Source: Gammaproteobacteria bacterium
Lineage (GTDB): Bacteria > Pseudomonadota > Gammaproteobacteria > Steroidobacterales > XN24
NCBI GenBank assembly: GCA_024640085.1
Contig: JAHEFR010000019.1
Span: 1 to 53,521, forward strand
Reading direction: 5' to 3'
Length of the DNA: 53,521 nt
In this document: piece after piece, positions 3,946 to 11,817 of the stretch
Layout: every line of letters begins with the position of its first letter
Position numbering within the stretch: the stretch's first letter is position 1
The notes under the pieces: generated by a model
What the model was told of the DNA's origin: nothing
Databases searched by the model: none
The model's input: the letters and a program-made list of their open reading frames with translations, nothing else
Program-made: the position numbers and the translations under genes

Positions 3946-5136
3946 ATGAAGAGCAAGCGCAGCATCGCCCTTGTCGCCCTGGCTGTCGTCGTCATCGGTG
4001 GCCTGGCCCTCGCATTCCGTCCGCGACCGGTGCCGGTGGACGTGGTGGAAGCCATCCGCGGCCCGCTGACCGTGACCGTCGAGGAGGAAGGCAAGACCCG
4101 GGTGATCGATCGGTACGTGGTGTCGGCGCCGGTGGCAGGCTTTGTGCGTCGGGTAGAGCTTGATGTGGGCGACCCGGTGGCCAAGGGAGACCCGCTCCTG
4201 ACTCTGGAGCCCCTGCGCTCTGACGTGCTCGATCCGCGCCGCCGGGCGGAGGCCGAGGCGCAGGTCCAGGCGGCCCGCGCCGCCTTGCTCGGCGCAGAAC
4301 AAAACGCCACCGCGGCGCTGGCGGACTCCCAGTACGCCGATACCGAGTTCCGCAGGAAGGAGAGGCTCCGCGCCGACGGCACCGTGTCGGAGGATGATCT
4401 GGACCGGGCCCGGGCCCAGGCCCTGACCGCCGCGGCCAGGTTGCGCTCGGCCCGGTTCGCGGTGGATGTGGCCCGCCACGAGCTGGAGGCGGCCAAGACG
4501 GCGCTGGAGTACTCCGCGGCCGAGGCCGGCAACCCGCCTGAAATGGTGTCCGTCACCTCCCCGGTGGGCGGCCGCGTGCTCGCTCTGGTGAGAGAGAGCG
4601 AGGGGGTGGTCAGTGCTGGAGCGGCGCTGATCGAGATCGGCGATCCCTCCAACCTCGAGGTCGAGGTGGACGTCCTTTCCATCGACGCGGTCAAGATCAC
4701 GCCGAACACGCCGGTCCGGTTCCTGCGCTGGGGTGGCGACGAGCCCTTGGAGGGCGTGGTCCGCGTCGTCGAGCCCACGGGATTCACAAAGGTCTCGGCC
4801 CTCGGGGTGGAGGAGCAGCGGGTGCTGGTGATCTCGGATATCACCTCCCCGAGGGAGGAATGGGAACGCCTCGGGGACGGCTATCGCGTCGAGGCCAGCT
4901 TCATCCTGTGGCACGGGGACGACGTGCTCCAGGTCCCTTCCAGCGCGGTGTTCCGCCAGGGAGACGGCTGGGCTGCCTTTGTGACGGAAGGAGACAGCGC
5001 CGTGGTGCGGCCGGTCGTCCCGGGACGGCGTACGGGGCTGGAGGTCGAGATCCGGGACGGGCTGGCGGCGGGCGATGAGGTCGTGATCCACCCGTCCGAC
5101 GAGGTATCCGACGGGGTCCGCATCCGCCGCCGCTAG
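3946..5136 (+). CDS. HlyD/MacA-type periplasmic adaptor subunit
   Basis: 396 residues, starting at an ATG preceded by AGGATGGACCC. A single N-terminal membrane anchor (about 5-22) is followed by a split barrel-sandwich domain: the first half is near VSAPVAGFVRRVELDVGDPV, the second near VTSPVGGRVLALV. Between them is an alanine-rich coiled coil (about 100-185). Beta-barrel and membrane-proximal domains follow, ending VSDGVRIRRR. This is the usual membrane-fusion-protein architecture bridging an inner-membrane ABC transporter to an outer-membrane channel. It is the last gene of the exporter operon and converges with the cyanophycin operon, leaving 7 bases between stops. Confidence 0.92.
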   Translation: MKSKRSIALVALAVVVIGGLALAFRPRPVPVDVVEAIRGPLTVTVEEEGKTRVIDRYVVSAPVAGFVRRVELDVGDPVAKGDPLLTLEPLRSDVLDPRRRAEAEAQVQAARAALLGAEQNATAALADSQYADTEFRRKERLRADGTVSEDDLDRARAQALTAAARLRSARFAVDVARHELEAAKTALEYSAAEAGNPPEMVSVTSPVGGRVLALVRESEGVVSAGAALIEIGDPSNLEVEVDVLSIDAVKITPNTPVRFLRWGGDEPLEGVVRVVEPTGFTKVSALGVEEQRVLVISDITSPREEWERLGDGYRVEASFILWHGDDVLQVPSSAVFRQGDGWAAFVTEGDSAVVRPVVPGRRTGLEVEIRDGLAAGDEVVIHPSDEVSDGVRIRRR

Positions 5137-5143
5137 CTCGGGA

Positions 5144-6853
5144 TCACGAGGTGGCGATGCCGGGATCCTGGTCTGCCGATAGATCACCGATCAGCGCCAT
5201 GACCCCGGCGATGTCCTCATGCACCAGCAGGATGGCGAGGTCGCCGGGTTTCAGCCAGGCCAGGGCTTCCCGGACCGCATCCCTCTCTTCCATGATATGG
5301 GATATCTGCTCCCCGGCCAGCCCGCTCGCCAGGAAGCTGTCCCTGAGCAGGCTCGCGACCTCTCCCTCGGCCCGACCGCGGGCGTAATGGGCCATCTCCT
5401 TGATCAGCACGCGATCCGGCCGCAGGCCGCAGGCGGCCAGGGCGAGCAGGCGGATGGCGTGGTCCCCGCGGTCTCCCGCCTGACCGATCATCACCAGCCT
5501 GCGTCCCGGGCAACCGAGCCCTTCCGCGAGTGATTGCAGGGCCCGGACCCCGTCCGGGTTATGGGCGAAATCCACGATGACGCTGGCGCCTCGGATCCGG
5601 AAGACGTTGCACCTGCCGGGATTCGCATCGGCCGTCGTCCCCCTGGCGGCTGCCAGGACAGCGTCCATGGGAACGCCGAGCGCATCGGCCAGGCCCATGG
5701 CCGCAAGACAGTTGGCCACGTTGTGCCGCGCGGCGCCGCCCACGGTCAGCGGCACCTCGGCCGCCCTGATCAGCGGCCGCCGGCCATGGCCTGTGACCTG
5801 TGTCAGATGGTCCCCTTCCAGCACGAAGGCCTTGTCGCCGCCGGCATCGCGAAACGCGGCGTCAATGGCCGCTGGATCGAGGCCAAACCACGTGACCGGG
5901 CAACGCAGGTCCGTGGCCCTGGCCACCAGGCGCGGGTCCCCGGCGTTGAGCACGGCCGTGCCGGCGGTCCCGAGGACACTGGTCACGATCCATTTGATAT
6001 CGGCCAGGGCCTCCAGGTCCCGGACGCCGAAGTCGTCCAGGTGGTCGGCGGCGACGTTCGTGATCACGCAGGCTTCGGCACTCTCGACGGCGACGCCGCG
6101 GCGAAGCAGGCCGCCCCGGGCCGTCTCCAGAACGGCGATCTCGACCCGCCGGTCCCTGAGTACCGCCCTGGCGCCCCCGGGCCCGGCGTAGTCCCCTTCC
6201 TCCAGGGTCCTGCCGTCGACGACGATGCGGTCGGTCGAACTGAGGCCCACGATCCTTCCTGCCGCTGCCGCCATGGCTGCCGCCATGCGGACGGTCGTAG
6301 TCTTGCCGTTGGTGCCGGTCACCAGACCCACGGGGATCGTGCCCAGTTCATCCCAGGGCACCTCCGCCGGCGGAGGGATCTCTCCCACGGGCCAGGTCCG
6401 GCTGAACCGGCCGAGACCCGCCGAGACACGGTCGTCGTCCGTCAGCACCGGTACCCCGTGATCGTGGGCAGCGTCGGCAAGTGCCGTCAGGGGCTGATTC
6501 GACTCTTCCTCGATCAGCCCGCTGATACGATCGGCGGCGGCGTCAAACGCCGGTTCGGGCCGGTCTCCGAGTCGGGACGCCGCCGCTTCGAAGGCCCAGT
6601 CGTTGATTTCCGTGGCTGCATAGAGCGCGTCGATGGGGGCGTCGAAACCGAGGCTGGCGCCGCCCGATACGCGGCGCACCCTCAAGGTTCGGTCGGACCA
6701 GCCCACGGCCGCCAGCATGCGGCGCGCGGCATCCTTCCACGCGGCCACGAAACTCTCCGTCTCGCCGGGGTCGAGAGCGACGTCGATGATCGCGCCGGGC
6801 CGGGCTGAGAGGATATTCGGCCCCGTCAATCGCCGGGAATCAAGCAGTTCCAT
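5144..6853 (-). CDS. Mur-ligase protein resembling cyanophycin synthetase without the ATP-grasp domain
   Basis: 569 residues. The Mur-ligase P-loop GTNGKTTT is at 180-187, followed by ETARGGLLRRG, an ITNVAADHLDDFG run and a C-terminal ligase domain with FAHNPDGVRAL. All of these have counterparts in the Mur half of the adjacent CphA. The first 160 residues are not ATP-grasp. They begin MELLDSRRLTGPN, and the GPN at 11-13 falls exactly where CphA also has GPN, so a trimmed CphA N-domain is plausible. It starts 16 bases after cphA stops and is the last gene of the operon. It probably ligates an amino acid to cyanophycin or a related peptide using ATP. That role is inference; the family is clear. 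Confidence 0.85.
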   Translation of the reverse strand: MELLDSRRLTGPNILSARPGAIIDVALDPGETESFVAAWKDAARRMLAAVGWSDRTLRVRRVSGGASLGFDAPIDALYAATEINDWAFEAAASRLGDRPEPAFDAAADRISGLIEEESNQPLTALADAAHDHGVPVLTDDDRVSAGLGRFSRTWPVGEIPPPAEVPWDELGTIPVGLVTGTNGKTTTVRMAAAMAAAAGRIVGLSSTDRIVVDGRTLEEGDYAGPGGARAVLRDRRVEIAVLETARGGLLRRGVAVESAEACVITNVAADHLDDFGVRDLEALADIKWIVTSVLGTAGTAVLNAGDPRLVARATDLRCPVTWFGLDPAAIDAAFRDAGGDKAFVLEGDHLTQVTGHGRRPLIRAAEVPLTVGGAARHNVANCLAAMGLADALGVPMDAVLAAARGTTADANPGRCNVFRIRGASVIVDFAHNPDGVRALQSLAEGLGCPGRRLVMIGQAGDRGDHAIRLLALAACGLRPDRVLIKEMAHYARGRAEGEVASLLRDSFLASGLAGEQISHIMEERDAVREALAWLKPGDLAILLVHEDIAGVMALIGDLSADQDPGIATS

Positions 6854-6869
6854 CCGGCCGCGCTCGGGG

Positions 6870-9674
6870 TCAGTCCGCCTCTTCCGGGTCCGGCGCGATC
6901 ATCACGCCGCGCTCGTCCCGAAGAAGTTTTTCCCCGGTCTCCGGTTGATAGGCCTCGTTTTCCATTTCCAGGGGCACGTAATTCGCTGGCTGGGAAACGG
7001 CCTCATGATCGACCGGCGAGGCCTCTCCCGGCTTGAAATAGATGATCTGTTTCCAGCATCGTTTGATCTGGTCGCCAAAGATCATCACCAGATCGCCGGA
7101 TCGCGCGCCGGCCAGGGCTGTATGGATGGATAGCTGCTCATCCGGCACTGCCTGGATGGCATCCCCCGCCACGCCGGCGTCGATCAGGGCCTCCCTCAGC
7201 ATCGCGGGCACCTCGCCGTCCGACCGGCCGCGACGGGAGTCGTCCTGCCGGCATATATAGGTGTCGAAATGGCCAGCCGCCGCCTTCGCGATCTCCCGGA
7301 TGTCCTCGTCCCGCCGGTCGCCCGGCGCGGCGAGCACTACGATCTTTCTGCCCGGCTCGCCCAAGCGCTCGACGAGGTCGCTCATGGTCCTCACCGCCGC
7401 GGGATTGTGGGCGTAATCGAGGATCACCTTGAATGGCAGCTCGGTGAAGATATTCATCCGTCCGGGCGCCTGGAAGAAGGTCGTGTCGAAGGTCCTCAGT
7501 CCCTGGCGGATATTCTCGAGATTGATACCCAGGCTGAACGCGAGACCGGCGGCGAACATGCCGTTCTGGACGTTGTGAAGGGCCTTGCCCTCCAGGGTCG
7601 CGGGGATCAGGTGGGTCCAGAGCAGCGGAATGTGGCTGCCGTTGTCGTAGATGGTGATCATGTCGCCGTTGAAGCCCTTCTCCAGGACCACGGCGCGGCC
7701 GCCCGCGCGCACGTGCTCCTTCACCAGGCCGTGCTCCGGGTTCATGGTCACGTAGCAGACGTGGCGGGCCTCGGTGTGAGCCGCCATCTTCAGGCAGTAG
7801 CTGTTATCGGCGTTCAGGACCGCCGTGTCCTGGGCGACCTCGATCGGAATGCGCTTGATCTCCGCGAGCTGTTCCAGGGTGTCGATGCCCTTCAGGCCGA
7901 GATGGTCGGAGCTGACGTTGATGCACGCGGCCACGTTGCATTTCTCGTAGCCGAGCCCGTTGCGAAGCAGCCCGCCTCGGGCGGTCTCCATGACAGCGGC
8001 GTCGATGGTCGGATCCCTCAGGATCATCTGGGCGGAGCGCGGGCCGGTCATGTCGCCCTCCACGCTCAGGTTGCCGTCGATATAGACGCCGTCGCTGCTG
8101 GCCAGGCCCACTGTGTGACCAGCCATCTTCATGATGTGCGCCAGCATGCGGGAGGTCGTGGTCTTGCCGTTTGTCCCGGTCACCGCGGCGATGGGCACGC
8201 GGCTCGGCGTACCCGGCGGGAACAGCATCTCGATCACCGGGCCCGCCACGTCACGCGGCGTGCCCTCGCTGGGCGCCACGTGCATCCGGAAGCCGGGCCC
8301 GGCGTTGATCTCGCAGATGGCGCCGCCGGTGTCCCGGTAGGACTTGCTGATGTCCGCGGTCAGGAAGTCCACTCCGCCGATGTCGAGGCCGATGCCCTTG
8401 ATGGCGCGGATCGCCATCTCCCGGTTATCGGGATGGATGATGTCCGTGACGTCCACGGCGGTGCCGCCGGTCGACAGGTTACCGGTGGAGCGGAGGTAGA
8501 CCACCTCGCCGTCCTCGGGGATCGTTTCCGGCGTGTATCCCTTCTGGGACAGCAGGCGCAAGGCCTGGTGGTCCAGCTCCAGCCGGGTGAGCACCTTCTC
8601 ATGCCCGATGCCGCGGCGGGGGTCGCGGTTCGTCTCCTCCACCAGTTCGCCGACCGTGTGCTTCCCGTCTCCGACCACGTGGCCCGGCACCCGCTTGGCG
8701 GCAGCGACAAGTTCGCCGTCGATTACCAGCAGACGGTGGTCGAGACCGTCGATAAAGCGTTCCACGACCACCGCCCGACCGTGTTCCCGCGCCTTCTCGA
8801 AGGCCGTTTCCACGTCCTCTGCCGTCGACATTCCGATAGAGACGCCTCGCCCGTGGTTGCCGCTCAGCGGCTTGACCACCACCGGGTAGCCGATCTTCTC
8901 CGCCGCGCGCACCGCCGCTCTCCCGTTGTAGACGAGACGCTGCTCCGGTACGGGCAGCCCCAGGTCCCGCAGGAGCGCATTGGTCTCTTCCTTGTCCGAG
9001 GCCAGGTCCACGGCGATGTTGCTGGTATTGCCCGTGGTCGTGGCCTGTATCCGCCGCTGATACTTGCCGTGGCCAAACTGCACCAGGCTGTAGCGGTTGA
9101 GCCGGATCCAGGGGATATCCCGCGCCTCCGCGGCCCGGACGAGGGAGCCTGTGCTCGGGCCCAGCGCCCGGTTCTGTGCATAGCGGATGAATTCGTCCCG
9201 TGCCTCGAGGAAGTCCCAGTCCTCGGCGGGGGCCTCCTCGGGGCGGAGGTCCGCCGGGAGAAGCCGGTGCAGGAGGTCCAGTCCCAGCCTGCCGGCCTCT
9301 CGGCCGACCTCCTGATCCCGGTACTGGAACACGACCGTGTACTGCCCGGGATGGTCGGCGACGGACCGGGTGCGGCCGAAACTCACCGGATATCCGGCGA
9401 CGCACTGGAGTTCGAGGACCACGTGCTCCAGCACATGCCCGAGCCACGTGCCCTCGTCCTCCCGCATCCGACGCAGGAAGCCACCGGCGGTGTCGTAGGA
9501 GCAGGTATGGTCACCCAGACCCGGGAGCGCGGCCACCAGCCCGTCTATGAAAGGTCCGCCGAGTCTGGCGGTTGGCCATTTCTCCAGCGTTCCCAGGTCG
9601 ATGACATGGCGGATGACCGGAAAGTTGGCATACAGGTTGGGGCCAATGTAGACATTGGTGGATAGTACTTTCAT
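6870..9674 (-). CDS. cphA: Cyanophycin synthetase
   Basis: 934 residues. CphA makes multi-L-arginyl-poly-L-aspartate, adding Asp and Arg with ATP. Domain order: N-domain (1-160, with GPN at 11-13 and EHVVLELQ at 83-90); ATP-grasp (about 220-480, with VVKPLSGNHGRG near 266-277 and EINAGPGFRMHVAPSEG); Mur ligase from P-loop GTNGKTTT (500-507) to the C-terminus. I start at the ATG at 9674, because residues from there match the family N-terminus (MKVLSTNVYIGPN); a longer open frame upstream is only the shadow of cphB. The start lies one base after the cyanophycinase stop, so the two are translationally linked. The length is slightly above the usual 870-900. Confidence 0.95.
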   Translation of the reverse strand: MKVLSTNVYIGPNLYANFPVIRHVIDLGTLEKWPTARLGGPFIDGLVAALPGLGDHTCSYDTAGGFLRRMREDEGTWLGHVLEHVVLELQCVAGYPVSFGRTRSVADHPGQYTVVFQYRDQEVGREAGRLGLDLLHRLLPADLRPEEAPAEDWDFLEARDEFIRYAQNRALGPSTGSLVRAAEARDIPWIRLNRYSLVQFGHGKYQRRIQATTTGNTSNIAVDLASDKEETNALLRDLGLPVPEQRLVYNGRAAVRAAEKIGYPVVVKPLSGNHGRGVSIGMSTAEDVETAFEKAREHGRAVVVERFIDGLDHRLLVIDGELVAAAKRVPGHVVGDGKHTVGELVEETNRDPRRGIGHEKVLTRLELDHQALRLLSQKGYTPETIPEDGEVVYLRSTGNLSTGGTAVDVTDIIHPDNREMAIRAIKGIGLDIGGVDFLTADISKSYRDTGGAICEINAGPGFRMHVAPSEGTPRDVAGPVIEMLFPPGTPSRVPIAAVTGTNGKTTTSRMLAHIMKMAGHTVGLASSDGVYIDGNLSVEGDMTGPRSAQMILRDPTIDAAVMETARGGLLRNGLGYEKCNVAACINVSSDHLGLKGIDTLEQLAEIKRIPIEVAQDTAVLNADNSYCLKMAAHTEARHVCYVTMNPEHGLVKEHVRAGGRAVVLEKGFNGDMITIYDNGSHIPLLWTHLIPATLEGKALHNVQNGMFAAGLAFSLGINLENIRQGLRTFDTTFFQAPGRMNIFTELPFKVILDYAHNPAAVRTMSDLVERLGEPGRKIVVLAAPGDRRDEDIREIAKAAAGHFDTYICRQDDSRRGRSDGEVPAMLREALIDAGVAGDAIQAVPDEQLSIHTALAGARSGDLVMIFGDQIKRCWKQIIYFKPGEASPVDHEAVSQPANYVPLEMENEAYQPETGEKLLRDERGVMIAPDPEEAD

Positions 9675-9675
9675 G

Positions 9676-10503
9676 TCAGACTTCCCCCCCCGCGTGCGCC
9701 TCCCGGCTGTTGATATCGAATTCGCCCCCGGACACCAGGATATGGAGTCTGACGCCGATGAGGCTGACCGGATCGCTGCGGTGCGCCCTGTCCATGGACG
9801 AATAAGTGATGCCGGAGGGGTCCACAATGGTGAGGCCCCCGCTGCCGACCACTTCCAGACCATTGTCGGGCGTGATGAATGCCGCGGTGTCTTCGTCCAG
9901 GCCCACGCCGACGGCGAAGGGGTTGTAGGCCAGCGCAGTCAGGAGCCGTCCCAGCCGGTCCCTCTGGCGGAAATGCTGGTCGATGATGACGTGATTGGTC
10001 AGTCCGAGCCCCGGCGCCAGGGTCACCATGTCCGGGGTCGGCGTAGACCCCTCGTAACCGCCCGCGATCATGTGTTCCGGCAGGAACGCCGCCCCCGCCG
10101 AGGTGCCGGCTACATGCATGCCGGCGGCATTGCGCTTGCGGATCAGCTTTGCAACCTCGGTGCCGCCGAGAGTGGTTGACAGCCTGAGCTGATTGCCGCC
10201 AGTGAGGAAGATCCCGTCCGCCTGTTCGATAGCCTCCAGATTGTCCCGGGAATTGCATTCAGAACGGGTAGCCATGGGCAGCACTTCTGCTCGCCGGACA
10301 CCCAGCTTGCGGAACAGGCGCCGGTAGTGCGGGCCTGTGTCCTCGAGTTCCGAAGCGGTGGGGATGATGGCGATACGGGCCGCATCGCCCCCGCAGATTT
10401 CCAGGAAGCGAGCCAGGATCTCCGGGTTGTGCAGCTTGTTCTCGGCGCCGCCGATGGGGACGATGAATCCCCGCCGGGTGCCTGCCGGCGGCCTGGATGG
10501 CAC
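9676..10503 (-). CDS. cphB: Cyanophycinase
   Basis: 275 residues, a peptidase S51-type serine hydrolase that cuts cyanophycin to beta-Asp-Arg dipeptides. The nucleophile motif GTSAGAAF is visible around residues 134-141, preceded by FLTGGNQLRL, a usual S51 feature. The start is GTG at 10503 with GGGAGAAC eight bases upstream, a good ribosome site. It has no signal peptide, so it should be intracellular and act on the cell's own store. It is the first recognised gene of the operon cphB-cphA-Mur ligase, putting breakdown and synthesis under one promoter. The dipeptidase that would finish the breakdown is not in this window. Confidence 0.93.
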   Translation of the reverse strand: MPSRPPAGTRRGFIVPIGGAENKLHNPEILARFLEICGGDAARIAIIPTASELEDTGPHYRRLFRKLGVRRAEVLPMATRSECNSRDNLEAIEQADGIFLTGGNQLRLSTTLGGTEVAKLIRKRNAAGMHVAGTSAGAAFLPEHMIAGGYEGSTPTPDMVTLAPGLGLTNHVIIDQHFRQRDRLGRLLTALAYNPFAVGVGLDEDTAAFITPDNGLEVVGSGGLTIVDPSGITYSSMDRAHRSDPVSLIGVRLHILVSGGEFDINSREAHAGGEV

Positions 10504-10575
10504 GATAGTTCTCCCGATTGGGTGTACGGCGTCCGTGCTGCGCTGGATGGCGAACGCGGGCGGCGGAAAAGCCGG

Positions 10576-10806
10576 TCATTTTACCACGACGGCCAGATTC
10601 AGGCAGTCCGGGGGAGCCTGGTCAAGAGCTTTCAGGGCGGCCAGCACGTCGCTTCTGAGGTCGTCCATGGCGGCGGAAACCCGCTCAGCGCTCTGGTCGC
10701 TTCGGCCCAGGCCATCCCAGTCTGCTTCCCGGGCTCCGACCAGCCGGCGAGGGGTCGTGGGAACCGGTTCCGGCAGGCTCTGGCCCAGACTGCCGATGAC
10801 CAGCAA
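10576..10806 (-). CDS. Possible small protein upstream of cphB, unknown
   Basis: An open frame of 76 codons with GC-rich third positions, as in real genes here, ends 72 bases before cphB on the same strand. It can only start at a TTG directly after an in-frame TAG, or at an internal ATG about 30 codons from the end, so the start is unconvincing. The C-terminal part (MDDLRSDVLAALKALDQAPP) looks helical and acidic. I recognise no family. It could be a short leader gene, a remnant, or chance coding in a GC-rich intergenic region. The remaining 129 bases up to the lipoprotein start at 10936 hold no other gene. Confidence 0.3.
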   Translation of the reverse strand: MLVIGSLGQSLPEPVPTTPRRLVGAREADWDGLGRSDQSAERVSAAMDDLRSDVLAALKALDQAPPDCLNLAVVVK

Positions 10807-10935
10807 CTAAGCCCAGCCTAACCTCGGGCTGCGCCGCTTGAATTGTCCCGCTTCGGACCCGATATTGCGAACAGTCAAGACGATTTTTCCGCAGCCGCGT
10901 CCAGCGACTCCGGACGGGCGGTGGGGGAGAGTAAA

Positions 10936-11817
10936 ATGCGGTCCATGACCCGGTCGATGCTGTTGATCCCTCTTGGCGTGCTGTTGGCCGGATGTTCGTC
11001 ACTGTTCGCTGGCGACACCGGCCGGACCGGGGTATCGAGCAGCCTGGTGGACTACCTCTACCCGAGGGGCGAAGTCCCCCCGCCGCCCGATGATCGCGTC
11101 CCCCACCTGGAACTGCCTATCCGTGTCGGTCTGGCGTTCGTACCCGGAGACGGCGGGGAGGCGCTCACCGAGAGCCAGCGGCAGCAGTTGCTTGAGAAGG
11201 TGAGGGCGGCCTTTGTGGGCCGGGAGTTCATCGAGGCCATCGAAATCATTCCCGAGACTTACCTGAGGCAGGGCAAGGGCTTCGACGCCCTGGAGGGCGT
11301 CGCCAGGCTATATCGCGTGGAGGCCGTCGCCCTGGTTTCGTACGACCAGGTCGCCTTCGTCGGCGATGCCGGTTCCTCGTTCTGGTACTGGACCATCGTC
11401 GGGGCTTACGTGGTCAAGGGGAGCGAGCACGAAGTGCAGACCTTCGTCGACACCGCGGTCTTCGACATGGGCACCCGATCCTTGTTGTTCCGGGCCCCTG
11501 GAGCTGACCGCCTGGAAACCCGCTCGACCCTGGTGGACTCGGCCCAGGCGCGGCGCGACGCCATGGCCGAGAGTTTCGAGAAAGCCATGGGCGCCATGAC
11601 GGTCAACCTGGATACGGAACTCGACCGATTCAAGACGCGTGTGGAGCAGGAGCAGGTGGCTGTCGTCTCTTACAAGCCAGGCCACGAGAAGCATGGGGGA
11701 GGCAGTCTGGGACCGCTGCCGTTACTGGCTCTGGCGGCATGGCTTTTGATGATTGGACGGCTCGAGCGAAGAAACCAGCCGAGGCGCGAGCGGTCAGATA
11801 CCAGGGAGGCGCCGTAA
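10936..11817 (+). CDS. Lipoprotein with GlyGly-CTERM tail (rhombotarget-lipoprotein type)
   Basis: 293 residues from the ATG at 10936, chosen because a GGGGGAGAG ribosome site precedes it and it gives a clean lipoprotein signal with lipobox LLAGC (Cys20). The body contains PIRVGLAFVP, SYDQVAFVGD and a WYWTIVGAYVV strand. The C-terminus has GGGS at about 254, then a hydrophobic helix (PLPLLALAAWLLMIG) and a basic tail LERRNQPRR. This is the GlyGly-CTERM arrangement processed by rhombosortase-type rhomboid proteases; the body matches what I know of the rhombotarget lipoprotein family. A rhomboid protease is encoded 1.3 kb downstream. It thus has sorting signals at both ends. Confidence 0.85.
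   Translation: MRSMTRSMLLIPLGVLLAGCSSLFAGDTGRTGVSSSLVDYLYPRGEVPPPPDDRVPHLELPIRVGLAFVPGDGGEALTESQRQQLLEKVRAAFVGREFIEAIEIIPETYLRQGKGFDALEGVARLYRVEAVALVSYDQVAFVGDAGSSFWYWTIVGAYVVKGSEHEVQTFVDTAVFDMGTRSLLFRAPGADRLETRSTLVDSAQARRDAMAESFEKAMGAMTVNLDTELDRFKTRVEQEQVAVVSYKPGHEKHGGGSLGPLPLLALAAWLLMIGRLERRNQPRRERSDTREAP

Follow-up and report, generated by a model that had tools for sequence, protein, structure and literature searches.

Gene Organization of the Locus

The window, that is, the whole stretch of 53,521 nucleotides that was analyzed, carries a compact cyanophycin operon on its minus strand, in the order cphB, cphA, and a third gene to which we gave the working name murX. The intergenic gaps are 1 and 16 bases; the coordinates, gene order, strand, and gaps are as given in the initial annotation. 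The features are:

9676-10503, minus strand: cphB, cyanophycinase of 275 amino acids (TIGR02069, 256.3 bits versus a cut-off of 126.6)
6870-9674, minus strand: cphA, cyanophycin synthetase of 934 amino acids with N, G, and M domains and a C-terminal extension; passes the curated cut-off
6873-7037, minus strand: C-terminal extension of CphA (about residues 880-934), with a variable linker, a hairpin, and an acidic end
6897-6926, minus strand: tail hairpin of CphA, LLRDERGVMI (residues 917-926), a conserved core that is a beta-hairpin in the AlphaFold2 model
6873-6884, minus strand: last four residues of CphA, EEAD, the proposed acceptor; the terminal Asp codon is 6873-6875
5144-6853, minus strand: murX, ligase of 569 amino acids with a CphA-like N domain, a Mur core, and a Mur lid
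6293-6316, minus strand: P-loop of MurX, GTNGKTTT (residues 180-187), with G180, N182, G183, K184, and T186 invariant in 44 rows

The start of cphA was set at the ATG at 9674 because it agrees with residue 1 of its relatives. The third gene is not a chance open reading frame, since it belongs to a conserved family that adjoins cphA in several phyla. Rfam gave zero matches to RNA elements within 4500-11000, and promoter- or terminator-like sites at the locus were not above the level of shuffled sequence.

Domain Structure and Phylogeny of MurX

All three motifs read at first from the 569-residue protein are present (GPN at residues 11-13, GTNGKTTT at 180-187, and ETARGG at 243-248). Its approximate domain boundaries are 1-165 for the N domain, 170-408 for the Mur core, and 409-560 for the Mur lid. 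In Pfam, Mur_ligase_M matches residues 178-389 (E = 1.4e-21; 77.8 bits versus a cut-off of 24) and Mur_ligase_C matches residues 413-542 (E = 3e-13; 51.2 bits versus a cut-off of 28.4). Neither an ATP-grasp family nor the Cyanophycin_syn N domain appeared in the same search up to E = 0.1, and Mur_ligase_M starts at residue 178; the lack of an ATP-grasp domain, which was the central point of the initial annotation, thus holds.

The AlphaFold2 model of MurX, built from a 44-row alignment, has a mean pLDDT of 94.8. Its eight best Foldseek matches are all CphA1 chains (best E = 1.3e-35), and in VIA-align, residues 1-409 superpose on Trichodesmium CphA1 across its N domain and Mur core (7wae_C; Z = 39.2, rmsd 3.0, 403 residues aligned). 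The first 165 residues are thus modelled with a CphA N-domain fold. A profile comparison of the N-terminal part with the CphA N domain gave a probability of only 3.8, detecting no sequence relationship, and the N-domain relationship therefore rests on the model fold: the trimmed CphA-like N domain proposed earlier stands as a modelled fold, with no kinship detected in sequence.

Residues 170-556 match cyanophycin synthetase models, although far under the curated thresholds (TIGR02068, 326.7 bits versus a cut-off of 850). Two other identities were rejected on model scores, namely FolC (51.5 bits versus a cut-off of 162.65) and MurE (84 bits versus a cut-off of 257.3). In an M-domain tree, all 33 rows of MurX group in a single clade (SH-aLRT 99), as do, in a clade of their own, the 33 CphA rows taken from murX operons (100), with one own-genome Mur ligase, present as two identical rows, as the outgroup. 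A second tree, with an extra own-genome Mur ligase and fewer rows, again united its 13 MurX rows (support 100). For comparison with MurX, the two trees included two or three Mur-type rows from its own genome, with no FolC row, and in neither does the branching point of MurX among CphA M domains have resolved support. Thus, the Mur-domain tree that had been suggested places MurX in one clade apart from the Mur ligases of the same genome, and, together with the model scores, it bears out the view of MurX as a CphA-related Mur ligase.

Distribution and Linkage to cphA

The murX gene follows cphA immediately in Gamma- and Alphaproteobacteria, Myxococcota, Planctomycetota, and Gemmatimonadota. Among the best 80 of 334 relatives, 21 (L009-L029) are near full-length, and 59 match from about residue 134 or later. 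The near-full-length loci have cphA directly upstream in 20 of 21 cases, with the contig ending at the remaining one (L017). In 13 of these 20, cphB precedes cphA; of the seven that remain, six are Myxococcota-type loci, and in the last, L029, the contig ends. The record titles name Gammaproteobacteria, Planctomycetota, Gemmatimonadota, Deltaproteobacteria/Myxococcales, and Rhodobacterales. Plasmid records of Ruegeria (two), Shinella zoogloeoides, and Roseateles show cphB and cphA followed by a "Mur ligase family protein". On the two Ruegeria plasmids, an annotated saccharopine dehydrogenase and an aldehyde dehydrogenase lie upstream (L102:2055-4676; L106:1966-4587), which hints at a lysine link.

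The same linkage was seen in genome samples, which overlap in some genomes. In the window's family, four of seven genomes have a full-length MurX, each adjoining a CphA. In the larger samples, where three or seven first-look candidates were scored per genome and a MurX may be missed, the counts are as follows: in the window's class, 18 of 369 genomes match (eight with a full-length MurX, all beside CphA, and ten with CphA only); in its order, 66 of 196 (by our reading of the rows, 62 with MurX over most of its length, three with contig-broken pieces, and one remnant), none of the 66 having a CphA match without some piece of MurX; in its phylum, 62 of 398 (five MurX, all beside CphA, 24 CphA only, and 33 weaker Mur-type matches); in the class of G630, 8 of 385 (three MurX, all beside CphA, and five CphA only). 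The family of G630, sampled in the same way, gave 7 of 198 (five MurX beside CphA and two CphA only). MurX is thus retained near cphA, the co-occurrence that the initial annotation wanted checked.

The one remnant in the order sample is found in G448, in a 237-residue frame (L176, C17:7096-7752) of a genome with no full CphA match, as if MurX decays after CphA is lost. Of 96 flanking open reading frames chosen from 15 loci, 60 were scanned with Pfam, which found amidohydrolases in six and TPR in three; among the 25 families listed, out of 91, there was no general recurrent third partner.

Catalytic and Remodelled Positions of MurX

K184, E243, D270, H271, K287, R414, and H431 are invariant across 44 MurX rows, and the same set without K184, re-counted in 54 rows, is again invariant. 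K287 is presumably the carbamate lysine. In Trichodesmium CphA1, the residues in contact with ATP or Mg2+ include the P-loop Lys, a Mg-binding Glu, and an Arg and a His of the lid (PMC9427784), and in Synechocystis CphA1, changing the Asp-His pair inactivates the M domain (PMC9262961); the matching of K184, E243, R414, H431, and D270-H271 to these residues is our own assignment. Because its catalytic residues are invariant, MurX looks like a working ligase.

Other positions have changed. The zinc peptidase motif HxxEH, present in about 80% of CphA1 according to PMC9262961, occurs in none of 59 MurX N domains, compared with 62 of 63 murX-linked CphAs, the exception (L175) being a protein without that region since its contig ends there. 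MurX has conserved arginines at R7 (53/54), R8 (54/54), and R252 (54/54); the CphA residue equivalent to R252 is mostly A, S, or E and is Arg in 9 of 51 cases. Judging by conservation, R7, R8, and R252 could bind the acidic tail of CphA described below. The donor-side loop also differs from that of CphA: other residues take the place of the acidic pair ahead of RGR, and in the CphA GDRR motif, the second Arg is not preserved in MurX. With a donor loop unlike that of CphA, the donor may not be Arg.

The C-Terminal Tail of murX-Linked CphA

CphAs linked to murX are about 930 residues long, versus about 870 otherwise, owing to an extension at the C-terminus. In 53 of these CphAs, the stretch that follows the conserved W-x-Q-(I/V) measures 49-67 residues, with two of 89 and 93, and it is laid out as a variable linker, a hairpin core (consensus LIRDERGVR), and an acidic end whose final residue is Asp. 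We compared all loci, merging near-identical copies (same last 200 residues) and omitting copies cut at the C-terminus by a contig end. The terminal Asp was found in 63/63 distinct murX-linked CphAs versus 0/93 CphA-like proteins without murX, the latter being over half Bacteroidota (mostly Pedobacter) and including tandem CphA copies and at least two proteins that lack the G domain (L034, L104). Similarly, the hairpin core is present in 63/63 murX-linked CphAs, and the 93 without murX hold one true core (G1316) and a second pattern match (L050) that looks like chance. An acid at position -4 (E or D in 60/63) is not discriminating by itself, as E is also found there in 50/93 CphAs without murX. 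The tail clade and MurX each fit a single origin, so the 63 cases are not independent.

Several features point to the protein end itself. Across 56 distinct tails, position -1 is Asp in 56/56 and position -4 is E or D in 53/56, and positions -2, -3, and -5 are variable. Over 58 loci, both Asp codons serve as the last codon (GAC in 38, GAT in 20) and all three stop codons are in use (TGA in 38, TAG in 12, and TAA in 8), so that selection acts on the end of the protein. CphA keeps its own stop codon in 58/58 loci and is never fused to MurX, even with gene gaps of -1 to 119, a pattern that fits a need for the end of CphA to remain free. The spacing from the hairpin to the end varies between 5 and 10 residues, and the two elements may therefore bind separately.

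In the AlphaFold2 model of the window's CphA, residues 884-909 have a pLDDT below 50, and the hairpin (residues 917-926) lies in blocks of mean 71 and 83; the whole model (pLDDT 77.8, pTM 0.42) does not suffice to place the domains. In the window's genome, the codon pattern for DE(R/S)G(V/I/M) occurs in seven places and a reversed control pattern in one, and among the reading frames shown, only that of CphA ends in E-x-x-D.

A further trait concerns the zinc site at CphA residues 58-84 (9423-9503), where the spacing from the zinc Cys to HxxEH is mostly 21 in tail-bearing CphAs, whereas three Bacteroidota CphAs and the published motif (PMC9262961) have 19. The 21-residue spacing is a possible sequence marker of the tail clade.

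Natural Exceptions

Two genomes, each a single case, are informative exceptions. G1316, which is 99% complete, encodes a tail-clade CphA (57.8% identity to the window's CphA in the best blastp piece), and none of the 38/38 first-look candidates scored in it is a MurX. This CphA ends in LVSDDRGVRIQRRE, with the hairpin present and the terminal Asp absent. Its position, at the base of the tail clade or inside it, has a support of 45, so that either loss or an ancestral state would fit. Since the hairpin survives here without MurX, the tail is not only for MurX. G1005 has two CphAs, of which the one adjoining murX ends in EEAD and the other is without a tail. These two single cases point the same way, suggesting from sequence that the terminal Asp goes with MurX and the hairpin with CphA itself. 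Directly after the G1316 CphA lies a 788-residue open reading frame (L218:6410-8776) resembling two cyanophycinase-type halves in one protein.

A Candidate Initiator Ligase

The growing end of cyanophycin is a C-terminal Asp that is modified by the Mur domain. It is for this reason that we propose that MurX loads the terminal Asp of CphA. Binding to the CphA1 M domain requires a C-terminal Asp without Arg (PMC9427784); by analogy, a ribosomal protein ending in Asp offers such an acceptor, with a peptide instead of polymer before it. An initiator ligase would be expected to resemble MurX, an M-domain relative with a remodelled N domain, conserved extra arginines, and a strict linkage to this CphA end. 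On indirect support, it is probable that MurX works in some manner on the C-terminus of CphA or through it. Our preferred explanation, put forward tentatively, is that MurX is a dedicated initiator ligase for cyanophycin acting on the encoded terminal Asp of CphA; the fuller scheme, in which MurX charges this Asp and a protein-primed polymer grows anchored to its synthetase, is possible, and we hold it with slightly more reserve.

In molecular terms, the disordered linker and small hairpin would form a tether ending in the encoded, free C-terminal Asp of CphA. The N domain and Mur core of MurX would bind this end, activate the beta-carboxylate of the Asp with ATP, and join an amino acid to it, most likely Arg. 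The charged CphA end would then have the same chemical form as a growing cyanophycin end, to which the ATP-grasp (G) domain of CphA could add Asp at the alpha-carboxylate, with the CphA M domain continuing. The first chains would thus grow on CphA itself, and the zinc peptidase site of its N domain may later cut pieces loose as further primers. The sequences and the model show the operon and its conservation, the predicted fold, the intact catalytic residues, and the strict link of MurX with the C-terminal Asp; tail binding, ligation, the identity of the amino acid, and chain growth on CphA are steps that we infer. Priming of chains had been among the roles suggested at the outset; it now gains specific support from the CphA tail, which had not been seen then, and its covalent step is the inferred part. 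Most CphA1s can cut chains into primers, and the earliest steps are regarded as slow (PMC9262961). The murX-linked CphAs keep this primer-making zinc site and therefore may not need another primer.

The main rival is docking, whereby the free CphA C-terminus recruits MurX and is itself left unmodified, with MurX working on the polymer in trans, e.g., adding another amino acid or capping chains. The strict link between tail and MurX and the fixed C-terminus are accounted for equally well by such recruitment, and the changed donor loop of MurX fits a different amino acid. The terminal Asp could also be part of a docking motif: the EEVD ends of chaperones, for instance, are read by carboxylate clamps. 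What docking leaves unexplained is the choice of Asp, which is the backbone residue of the polymer and serves the CphA M domain as acceptor. The genes suited to lysine breakdown just upstream of the operon on two Ruegeria plasmids would favor it, but they occur in those two records only, and the Pfam scan of 60 open reading frames revealed no general partner among the families listed. We regard docking as somewhat unlikely.

MurX might also be a second side-chain ligase that works on free cyanophycin independently of the tail, the latter serving granule anchoring, assembly, or CphA turnover. The N domain and Mur core of MurX share the fold of CphA1, in which the polymer sits between these two parts (PMC9427784), and a hairpin that persists in G1316 without MurX and is also predicted when CphA is modelled by itself suggests that part of the tail serves CphA. 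The coincidence of terminal Asp and MurX is nevertheless left without a reason, and this account seems to us improbable. An inactive pseudo-ligase subunit tuning CphA, the regulatory role that had also been considered, would suit the close partnership of the two proteins. Against it stands the invariance of the P-loop Lys, of the residues for metal and phosphate, of K287, and of the D-H pair (44 rows, and 54 where re-counted), which makes a purely regulatory function very hard to credit.

Comparison with Known Systems

Mur ligases use ATP to join an amino acid to a carboxylate. The fold of the Mur core and lid is common to MurX, MurE, and the other Mur ligases, but the N domain of MurX is of the CphA type and its score with the MurE model falls far below the cut-off. 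In glycogenin-type systems, a storage polymer is started on a protein. The likeness to our proposal is one of working principle only; the chemistry is different, there is no homology, and on the side of CphA, an invariant terminal Asp is what is seen.

The closest known protein is CphA1, with which MurX shares the N-domain fold, the Mur core and lid, the Mur catalytic residues, and an operon. It differs in having neither the ATP-grasp G domain nor the zinc peptidase motif of the N domain, and in its donor-side loop, extra conserved arginines, and separate clade. CphA2 is, like MurX, a simplified relative of CphA, and the earlier remark that it is simplified the opposite way proved correct: CphA2 is without the M-domain P-loop and M lid (PMC9427784) and works through its ATP-grasp site, whereas MurX keeps the Mur P-loop and lid. 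Among the listings of the open-access literature, we found no description of MurX or of the CphA tail, which does not prove that none exists. A published survey of clusters of cyanophycin genes does not describe MurX in the part covered, and "Mur ligase" occurs zero times in its main text (PMC10206079).

Other rearrangements of CphA relatives were encountered. A Legionella adelaidensis plasmid encodes a different G-less protein, with an HxxEH-containing N domain and a Mur domain (L104:8617-12279), followed by cyanophycinase and isoaspartyl peptidase genes and with no cphA within the 19.4-kb stretch; similar N-plus-Mur proteins without HxxEH are found in the Bacteroidota-type loci L030, L031, and L034. 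Proteins of the L104 type are probably an independent route to the same architecture. In addition, twelve loci of the window's class (L141, L143, L189-L193, L197, L198, and L204-L206) have two tandem CphA-like genes, in most cases with one copy whose Mur part is incomplete. This second copy probably corresponds to the CphA-prime of Ralstonia.

Implications

How the first cyanophycin chain starts is unsettled, and a ligase so strictly linked to a terminal Asp in the coding sequence brings it within direct experimental reach. If the proposal is true, a C-terminal tag on such CphAs would block the site, and the MurX-CphA pair might allow primer-independent cyanophycin production. Should priming hold, it would be a new principle for cyanophycin, i.e., a glycogenin-like start for a non-ribosomal peptide polymer, whose first backbone residue would come from the genetic code.
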